64,000 bases of DNA from Pirellulales bacterium (lineage in GTDB: Bacteria > Planctomycetota > Planctomycetia > Pirellulales > PALSA-1355), in NCBI GenBank assembly GCA_022844125.1, contig JALHMI010000009.1, positions 124,001 to 188,000 of the forward strand. Reading direction: 5' to 3'. Below the pieces are notes generated by a model. That model saw nothing but the letters and a program-made list of their open reading frames with translations. It did no database searches and was not told the DNA's origin. The position numbers were made by a program, and so were the translations under genes. Below are positions 22,244 through 23,780 of the stretch, one piece after another; position 1 is the first letter of the stretch; the number at the start of each line of letters is the position of its first letter.

Positions 22244-22575
22244 CGTCTGATCTCCGCGGAAAGGGCGCACGGGTGGCGCGGGGCGTTTAACGGGAATTCG
22301 CCACCGCGTGGCCGATCTTGGCCCAGTCTCTGCCAGTAATTCGTCTCGGGCAGCAATTCGCCGTCTGCCGCCGTCGTCATTATAAAGCTCGCGTCTCGGG
22401 ACTCGCGGTTGAGGACGATTTGCCCGGCTGTTTTGCCGCGTCGCGTTTTTGGGGTGTGTGGATTTAGAAACGCGCGCAAATGATGTTTCGGCGCCACACA
22501 CACGCCCCTCTGGCGGCCCTGCGGGCTTTGCATCTTCTCCAGTTTCACGGTGGCGGCTGCAGGCGTCATGGTCAT
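22240..22575 (-). other. Short ORF inside repeat copy B
   Basis: A 111-codon ORF starting at 22575 whose first 50 or so codons match the copy A peptide (TVKLEKMQSPQ, GVCVA, RAFLNPH, KTAG). Beyond the repeat it continues in unconserved sequence to a stop that overlaps the start of the S41-like gene. If only the repeat part is coding, the downstream residues are fortuitous. Confidence 0.25.
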
Positions 22576-22733
22576 GGCTCGGTCTCTCTCTAGTGTCGTG
22601 ACCTTACCCTATCTGAAATCCTGGCCACATTTCTAGAGGTGTTGGACACGTGGGCGGTGTGCGCGGTGCGCACGCGAGCGCGGCGAGGGCCAACGACTTA
22701 CGCAGCGAGCCAGCCACACGCGCGGGCAAGTTC
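22422..22733 (-). repeat. Dispersed leader repeat, copy B
   Basis: Inverted partner of 841-1150. Read on the minus strand it carries the same ordered blocks: GCGTGCGCAC, CGCACACCGCCCACGTGTCC, CTCTAGAAAT, TGGCCAGGA, GGGTAAGGTCACGACA, ACCGTGAAACTGGAG, ATGCAAAGCCCGCAG, GTGTGTGTGGCG and GCGTTTCTAAATCCACAC. Like copy A it lies just upstream of a gene for a secreted protein and in the same orientation as that gene (start 22243). Its outer end is about 50 bases from the first palindrome-ended tandem unit. Confidence 0.8.
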
Positions 22734-22780
22734 GATTCGGAATGCGAATTTTTCAGATGCGAGCGATGGCTGCCCGGAAA

Positions 22781-23217
22781 GTAGCAGGCACACGCCGTGT
22801 GCCGTTGCTGAACTAGCGAAGTGGCGACAATCTCCGAAGGGCCAGCAGCAGTAAGTCGGCTGGCTCGTCAGGCCGTCCTCGAATGCCGAGCTCTTCTCCG
22901 CCCCGGTTACAGCACACGGCGTGTGCTTACTACTTAGCAGGCACACGCCGTGTGCCGTCGCTGAACCGCCACAGAGCCCGCGATCGTCAGTCGGCTCGCT
23001 CGTCGGGGCGTTCTCGATGCACCGTCTTTTCAACTTCGGTTACAGCACACGGCGTGTGCTTACTACGTAGCAGGCACACGCCGTGTGCCGTTGCTGAACT
23101 AGCGAAGTGGCGACAATCTCCGAAGGGCCAGCAGCAGTAAGCCGGCTGGCTCGTCAGGCCGTCCTCGATGCGGAGCCTTGTCCACTTCGGTTACAGCACA
23201 CGGCGTGTGCTTACTAC
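22781..23217. repeat. Three tandem palindrome-ended repeat units
   Basis: Units lie at 22781-22933, 22934-23066 and 23067-23217. Each opens with (G)TAGCAGGCACACGCCGTGTG and closes with GCACACGGCGTGTGCTTACTAC, so its ends are inverted copies of each other, and each end contains the palindrome GCACACG-C-CGTGTGC. Units 1 and 3 also share a central block (CTAGCGAAGTGGCGACAATC... through CAGCAGTAAG); unit 2 has a shorter, different centre but keeps the GTCGGCTxGCTCGTC and TCCTCGA-like blocks. No ORF for a transposase is present. The structure is that of REP/MITE-type non-autonomous elements. Confidence 0.85.
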
Positions 23218-23421
23218 GTTCAAGTTGCCGCCCCAGCTCGATGCGGCGGCGGAGGTGCTGCTCAACTTCCGCGGCGTCGGCGTCGGGATACTGCCGCCGA
23301 ATGCCGGCGCGGGCGACTTCGCAGGCGAACTCGTACAGGTCGAGCGCGATCTTGAGACGCTGCTCGCCGTCATCTGACGGTAGAGTTCGATTTGCCTGGC
23401 AAGTGCGGCTTCAGGACTCAT
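23218..23421 (-). pseudogene. Frameshifted Rv0078B-like antitoxin gene, 3' end replaced by repeat
   Basis: From ATG 23421 the frame reads MSPEAALARQIELYRQMT, then a single-base loss near 23372 shifts it. In the next frame it continues GEQRLKIALDLYEFACEVAR, AGIRRQYPDADAAEVEQHLR and RRIELGRQLE, the body of a small helical family I associate with Rv0078B-type antitoxins (from memory, to be checked). At 23217 the frame enters tandem unit 3 and gains a repeat-encoded tail beginning RSKHTPCAVT. Both changes argue that it is no longer functional. Its start overlaps the end of the upstream remnant by ATGAGTCCTGA, as in coupled two-gene operons. Confidence 0.65.
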
Positions 23422-23461
23422 CGGGCAACTCACCTTGATCGAACAAGCCGTACGCGGCGAT
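23411..23461 (-). pseudogene. C-terminal scrap of the gene formerly upstream of the antitoxin-like gene
   Basis: On the minus strand 16 codons plus stop read IAAYGLFDQGELPDES, ending in a TGA that overlaps the ATG of the antitoxin-like gene. The overlap is what remains of a coupled partner, perhaps the toxin (nucleotidyltransferase-like in related loci, as I recall). The sequence just upstream belongs to the kinase-like fragment in a different frame, so a deletion joined the two near 23465. Confidence 0.35.
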
Positions 23462-23468
23462 CGAGCCA

Positions 23469-23780
23469 TCACGCGGGCTCCAGAATCGAGCCGTCTGCGA
23501 CAGCACGGGCAATCCGACTGAGATGATTGCATTTTCCGCACAAGGTTTTCTCGAACATGTAGGCAGTAGTCATGCCTTGTAAAACCTCTGCCGTATTTGG
23601 ACTCGCAAATGCACGAGTGTAGTCCATGGCTTTTAGAAAGCCTTTGGACCCGTCTTCGTGCTTGGCGATGTAGCCCTGAGAGAAAAAACCTCCGGTCGCA
23701 TTCGGTTTCCGCTGGGCCGGCTCGACTACGGTCCAGCCGTTTCGAAGATCGAGCCCTTTCAATTGTTCGGCCGGTGTCAT
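23469..23780 (-). pseudogene. N-terminal fragment of a protein-kinase-like gene
   Basis: Starting at ATG 23780 (MTPAEQLKGLDL), 103 codons encode the opening of a kinase-like protein: GGFFSQGYIAKHEDGSKGFL followed by KAMDY looks like a glycine-rich loop and Lys strand, then an NTAEVLQGMTTAYMFEKTLC helix and HLSRIARAVADGSI. A stop comes just where the hinge and catalytic loop should follow. The missing catalytic lobe makes this a truncated remnant, joined to the end of an unrelated gene. I recall similar full-length planctomycete proteins with complete Ser/Thr kinase domains, but cannot verify this here. Confidence 0.55.

Follow-up and report, generated by a model that had tools for sequence, protein, structure and literature searches.

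What are the three tandem, palindrome-ended units at positions 22781–23217 of this DNA, which enzyme could move them, and how did they come to stand head to tail? The window, the whole 64,000-nucleotide stretch that we analyzed, belongs to a 6.44-Mb assembly of 27 contigs, in which the array is referred to as C9. We confirm the three tandem units with inverted palindromic ends reported in the initial annotation: they measure 153, 133, and 151 bp and abut exactly, with zero bases between them. Their hairpin ends are referred to here as REPs and the units as REPINs, and a further repeat to their left as E. The features of the locus are as follows.

22419 to 22754, plus strand: companion repeat E (approximate core, ~340 bp), with a T-run at its right end
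22755 to 22780, plus strand: linker from E to the REPIN, containing TGGCTGCC and further on GGAAA; similar linkers occur at C1, C5, and both C18 loci
22781 to 22933, plus strand: REPIN unit 1, 153 bp
22781 to 22803, plus strand: REP, left type A (GTAG, 7-bp stem, GCC loop)
22911 to 22933, minus strand: REP, right type B, end of unit 1
22934 to 23066, plus strand: REPIN unit 2, 133 bp, with T replacing G as its first base
22934 to 22956, plus strand: REP, type A with TTAG, start of unit 2
23044 to 23066, minus strand: REP, type B, end of unit 2
23067 to 23217, plus strand: REPIN unit 3, 151 bp
23067 to 23089, plus strand: REP, type A, start of unit 3
23195 to 23217, minus strand: REP, type B, overlapping the 3′ end of a minus-strand ORF at 23191–23541

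The left end of the units consists of GTAG, CA, and a hairpin of GGCACAC, GCC, and GTGTGCC (GTAGCAGGCACACGCCGTGTGCC), with TTAG as the tag in unit 2; the right end, read on the other strand, consists of GTAG, TA, and a hairpin of AGCACAC, GCC, and GTGTGCT (GTAGTAAGCACACGCCGTGTGCT). Both ends are 23 nt long, shorter than the 30 shared bases originally proposed, and they differ from each other at three positions. GTAG is the tag in five of the six REPs of the window and TTAG in the remaining one, and the spacer between the inverted REPs of a unit is 87–107 bp. The core GCACACNNNGTGTGC occurs six times in the 64-kb window, always inside the array (shuffle mean, 0.01), and the array ends make up six of the 11 perfect palindromes in the window (8-bp arms, 0–4 nt gap). 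Two of the six ends, folded as single-stranded DNA, form a stem of 7 bp closed by a 3-nt loop, with GTAG in an unpaired tail. Unit 2, the only unit folded whole, forms one long hairpin with single-stranded DNA parameters (z = −4.5), and the end hairpin is kept in the fold of the first 84 nt of unit 3 (z = −1.8).

The initial annotation expected further copies in the genome, as opposed to an array standing alone, and REPs are indeed found at many loci. There are 53 REPs with the GTAG tag at no more than one mismatch, against none in the reversed control; at no more than three mismatches, the numbers are 68 and 18. Pairing by hand gives 25 inverted REP pairs at 11 loci, including one pair whose second REP lies in unknown bases: six pairs at C7, four at C8, three each at C1, C5, and the window array, and six single pairs. 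A few right-hand REPs are degenerate (two to three mismatches), and solitary REPs are also present (for example, at C10 and C12). In the listed exact matches, the strand carrying GTAG has TCC or GCC as its loop, and the hairpin therefore has a direction. Type A on the left and type B on the right keep their places at most loci; C11 has two A ends, and both ends of the 89-bp pair of C8 are B-like.

Dispersed copies with inverted ends would also be seen in a conventional MITE family, one with terminal inverted repeats and mobilized by a DDE transposase. Such an identity is very improbable here, since the ends form hairpins with GTAG left unpaired and with a 3-nt loop (KCC) whose strand is fixed, the listed flanks contain no target-site duplication that is consistent by eye (at either end, many outer flanks finish in AAA or AAC), and the associated transposase is of the Y1/HUH type. 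We set it aside on anatomy.

That transposase is one of 10 matches to PF01797 (Y1_Tnp) found by six-frame search of the genome. The match lies at C7:191932–192150 (23.7 bits; cut-off, 23), with a protein match at 191875–192516, and the gene sits between REPINs at 191614–191879 and 192537–193099, with four REPs to its left and seven to its right (locus L140). The 238-aa protein scores 22.4 bits against Pfam Y1_Tnp, slightly below the cut-off of 23, and 72 bits (E = 4.7e-20) against the NCBIfam model for REP-associated tyrosine transposase (RAYT), for which the cut-off is 80; because this score falls below the cut-off, we name the protein a RAYT by its motifs, its REP flanks, and its best match instead. 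It has an intact HUH motif, an FWQ...DH..R region, and the tyrosine of YI..NP, and N133-H-V-H136, W173-Q174, D179-H180, R183, and Y194 are invariant in all 11 aligned sequences, its own included. The WQ and R residues have been read as the region that contacts GTAG (PMC6006769). The best PDB match of the RAYT profile is TnpA_REP (4er8, E = 3.2e-5), and the likeness to this solved protein is a distant one, with 84 of 210 profile positions covered.

According to the classification in PMC6006769, class 3 Y1 proteins occur mainly in planctomycetes, acidobacteria, and proteobacteria and go with Y....Q and a CnGA foot; the C7 RAYT has Y...NP and GTAG and, by those signs, would belong to class 2. A second REPtron is present at L088 (C6:78961–80440), where a Y1 gene at 79459–79827 lies among tandem GTGG-tagged hairpins (GTGGCACCGACAATCTGTCGGTG and its kin) and a copy of E lies to the left of the gene.

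By its anatomy and neighborhood, the C7 locus is a REPtron. A RAYT-type transposase had been suggested for the palindromic ends, and the association of an intact-motif RAYT gene with two clusters of the same units, one on either side, supports this suggestion. We therefore consider it highly probable that the three units are REPINs and that the RAYT at C7:191875–192516 (TnpA_REP, a Y1 HUH nuclease) is their most likely mover. They would be non-autonomous elements, each formed by two inverted GTAG-tagged REP hairpins around its 87- to 107-bp spacer, on which the C7 RAYT would act while they are single stranded. We infer that this enzyme cuts and joins the REP ends of the window, so that mobilization would be in trans.

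RAYTs of the C7 subfamily (E ≤ 1e-15) were found in 17 of 57 genomes (our own and 56 relatives), with 24 matches. Taken whole, with the gene included, the 24 RAYT loci contain 86 GTAG hairpins (11 of them at our own locus) vs. 0.1 in dinucleotide shuffles. At least one such hairpin is present at 17 of the 24 loci, our own included, and 12 loci have hairpins on both sides (by true gene position for L148 and L161, and by a split at position 1501 for the others). The stems are locus-specific, for example GGCTCAC in G002, GGCACGT in G043, CCGCTTGC in G007, and TCCGCCGC in G015. While the stems vary in this way, the tag is constant and the loop mostly so, ending in CC in 79 of the 86 hairpins, mostly as TCC. 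Variable stems together with a constant tag and a mostly constant loop fit a nuclease that would read the tag, the loop, and the pairing of the stem.

Several of the same data oppose a strict pairing of RAYT and REP. Seven of the 24 RAYT loci, including that of the closest RAYT (G007, 64%), have no GTAG hairpin, and at L153 the sole hairpin is located inside the RAYT gene. Among the 12 other genomes with the GCACAC type of REP, five have no RAYT of the C7 subfamily at E ≤ 1e-15, and G018 is the only relative with the GCACAC stem beside its own RAYT. This genome, from the same order, holds 411 REPs of the GCACAC type at no more than one mismatch, approximately eight times the number in our own.

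Direct stacking of units was described in the initial annotation as not normal for independently moving MITEs. Head-to-tail order is, however, normal for REPINs and BIMEs (PMC3116915, PMC8266576), and both tandem REPIN clusters and insertions of a REPIN into or beside another are on record for Pseudomonas fluorescens (PMC3116915); stacking is already in print and therefore no novelty. Eight joints in C1, C7, and the window array read CTAC/GTAG (TTAG in place of GTAG at one) with no host base between the units, and one further C7 unit follows after an 11-bp gap. Exact CTAC/GTAG joints also occur in the REPtrons of G018, G007, and G022; a search of a wider collection of genome contigs with the tandem-junction pattern gave no match. 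Exact joints would be expected if cut ends are joined by the RAYT or if it places a new unit directly beside an end already present.

Other arrays have recurring spacers between their units, of 8 bp at C5 and of 21 bp between the four units of C8. The C8 spacer resembles both outer flanks, having TTTGCAGCGTGA in common with the right and AGCGTGAACCCGCG with the left, as might be expected from local duplication (slippage or recombination) after insertion. One could then regard the arrays as purely local duplication of one inserted REPIN, by slippage or unequal exchange between palindromes, without a role for the RAYT. We give this reading considerable weight, although we hold it to be somewhat less probable than its opposite. 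The two comparable C5 units, separated by the 8-bp spacer, are identical, and mean inner identity is higher within loci (0.81, 20 pairs) than between loci (0.73, 211 pairs), in a comparison that omits one pair with unknown bases, a truncated unit, the 89-bp pair, and the double C18 unit; yet the eight joints at C1, C7, and the window are entirely free of flanking sequence. Nor does the order of the window units conform to it: Units 1 and 3 are mutual nearest relatives (inner identity, 0.94), and unit 2 between them is of another subtype.

The same order fits the original proposal of duplication or of insertion into one another. After unit 3, the nearest relative of unit 1 is the REPtron unit C7:192537 (inner identity, 0.87), to which units 1 and 3 both fall within the range 0.87–0.89; unit 2 is nearest to the REPtron units C7:191747 (0.83) and C7:192822 (0.82). 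The window copy of E is likewise nearest to the E of C7 (95% over 202 bp, among the best 40 of 60 candidates). Because its E copy and its units are both nearest to those of C7, the REPtron region is the probable source of the window array, either through insertion of a unit into a unit or through duplication and loss.

REPIN unit 1 starts 26 nt past the right end of E, a repeat with at least 29 copies in the genome (that of the window and 28 further ones, loci L100–L127, from the best 40 of 60 candidates scored). In seven of the 29 copies, a REPIN begins no more than 30 bp beyond E's right end, vs. 0.002 expected under random placement of 13 REP loci. The GTAG of the REPIN follows the T-run of E by 26 nt in the window array, by 28 nt at C1, C5, and each of the two C18 loci, by 17 nt at C7, and by 10 nt at C3. 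Three more E copies have a REP 146, 371, and 556 nt rightward, and 19 have none in the stretch examined. Y1 genes are found on the same side: seven of the 10 PF01797 matches have an E copy at most 3 kb to their left (0.14 expected), a limit that was chosen post hoc and to which one of the seven, at 2.98 kb, lies close. The window has a second copy of E at 843–1010 on the minus strand (L104), with no REPIN nearby in the stretch examined.

E was found in none of the 56 relatives (best 12 candidates per genome scored) and in none of 395 other genomes of the order (best two candidates each; partly the same relatives). One exact pattern for E gave no match in the wider collection of genome contigs, a collection that possibly lacks the record of our own genome. 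Rfam has no match at gathering score in the 64 kb, E and the array included; the nine matches in 22300–23600 are weak and far below the gathering scores (eight to miRNA models, in the array, and one to a snoRNA model). A structured-RNA identity for E gains no support from covariation: RNAalifold, on the one strand folded, predicts 22 pairs, none of which has changes on both sides. Many copies contain a small minus-strand ORF of similar wording, several are broken by stops or run in other frames, and neither Pfam nor NCBIfam has a match to the window version; the coding capacity of E is doubtful. In 20 of the 29 copies (e.g., L100, L102, and L103), the motif TCGAATTTTCAAAGAGC occurs, with no more than three mismatches, 360–477 nt left of the T-run of E. 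We take the complementary strand of this motif to resemble a boxA.

C18 has two loci, separated by 13 kb, whose alignment starts at the left end of E, passes through the linker, and enters the REPIN with 99.4% identity over 501 bases. A further aligned stretch (94.5% over 128 bases) extends the match to the right end of the REPIN; the match is split into two pieces because one of the loci has an extra partial unit. Their outer flanks differ on both sides. A shared block between differing flanks indicates that E and the REPIN were copied together at least once. With the 26- to 28-nt linker at five loci, this raises the possibility that E and the REPIN are one composite mobile unit, of which E is the left part. 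We think this rather unlikely: no REPIN lies within 30 bp of 22 of the 29 E copies, the E of C5 is nearest to a copy without a REPIN (88.7%), and the extra partial unit is present at only one of the two C18 loci. It is a still more tentative suggestion that a nuclease of the RAYT family moves, besides REP dimers, a block of ~0.5 kb composed of E and the REPIN, with E as a lineage-specific repeat whose far end lacks a REP.

The locus lies between genes for a TPR/S41-peptidase protein (on the left) and a family-2 glycosyltransferase, which are separated by 1.8 kb that contain E, the array, and two small ORFs. Of the two flanking genes, the left one has a relative at E ≤ 1e-30 in one genome, G002 (another genus), out of three from the same family; in G002, the relatives of both flanking genes are ~130 bp apart. 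In this comparison with one relative, the difference in distance reflects either an insertion here or a loss in G002. The minus-strand ORF beside the array (23191–23541) appears frame-shifted, with its later part in another frame that enters the REPIN.

As the array overlaps the 3′ end of this ORF, and REPs are reported to lie mostly downstream of genes (PMC3733652), the units might have been retained for a role in the host, in transcription termination or mRNA stabilization at gene ends, and not through movement. Only ~11 loci in 6.44 Mb have pairs, however, and the copying of blocks is recent, so that we consider such retention improbable and movement of the REPINs by the C7 RAYT remains the reading that we prefer.

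The window units share with the REPINs of P. fluorescens SBW25 two inverted REPs with GTAG on the outside (Bertels and Rainey 2011, PMC3116915) and differ from them, as described there, in having a stem (GGCACAC) and a loop (KCC) of their own, few loci, and the association with E. The joints in three of our arrays are free of flanking sequence, whereas the ordered clusters of SBW25 are presented as repeats that include flanking sequence (PMC3116915). The GTAG-tagged REP superfamily (Di Nocera et al. 2013, PMC3733652) is similar in its tag, its 5- to 13-bp stems, its HH dimers, which tend to have conserved spacers, and its occurrence in members of the PVC superphylum, with R. baltica given as one of the species with several REP families; the GGCACAC stem and its loop may be among the 24 families listed. 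In the REPtrons of Escherichia coli and Stenotrophomonas, as at C7, a RAYT with HUH and one tyrosine (TnpA_REP) stands beside its REPs, and the REP of S. maltophilia, like those of the window, has a short perfect stem and a 3-nt loop (PMC8266576). Among the titles and abstract openings listed for REPINs, RAYTs, and planctomycete REPs, no paper deals with the GGCACAC family or with a companion like E. REPINs with a RAYT are thus a known kind of system, of which this is a lineage-specific case; the companion repeat E is the unexpected part.

The genome therefore presents a small REPIN system in a bacterium that is planctomycete-like by its gene content, with one RAYT found with GGCACAC REPs and ~11 paired loci. 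Its exact end-to-end joints suggest where cutting must occur. The order-wide set of RAYTs and REPs, with their differing stems and nearly constant loop, can be used to test recognition, and G018 is a better population in which to study the GCACAC REP family. If E and the REPIN do move as a composite block, E would be carried along as cargo or would serve as a landing pad to whose right side REPINs and Y1 transposase genes are drawn. The repeat could also reveal whether RAYTs are ever able to mobilize something bigger than a REPIN.
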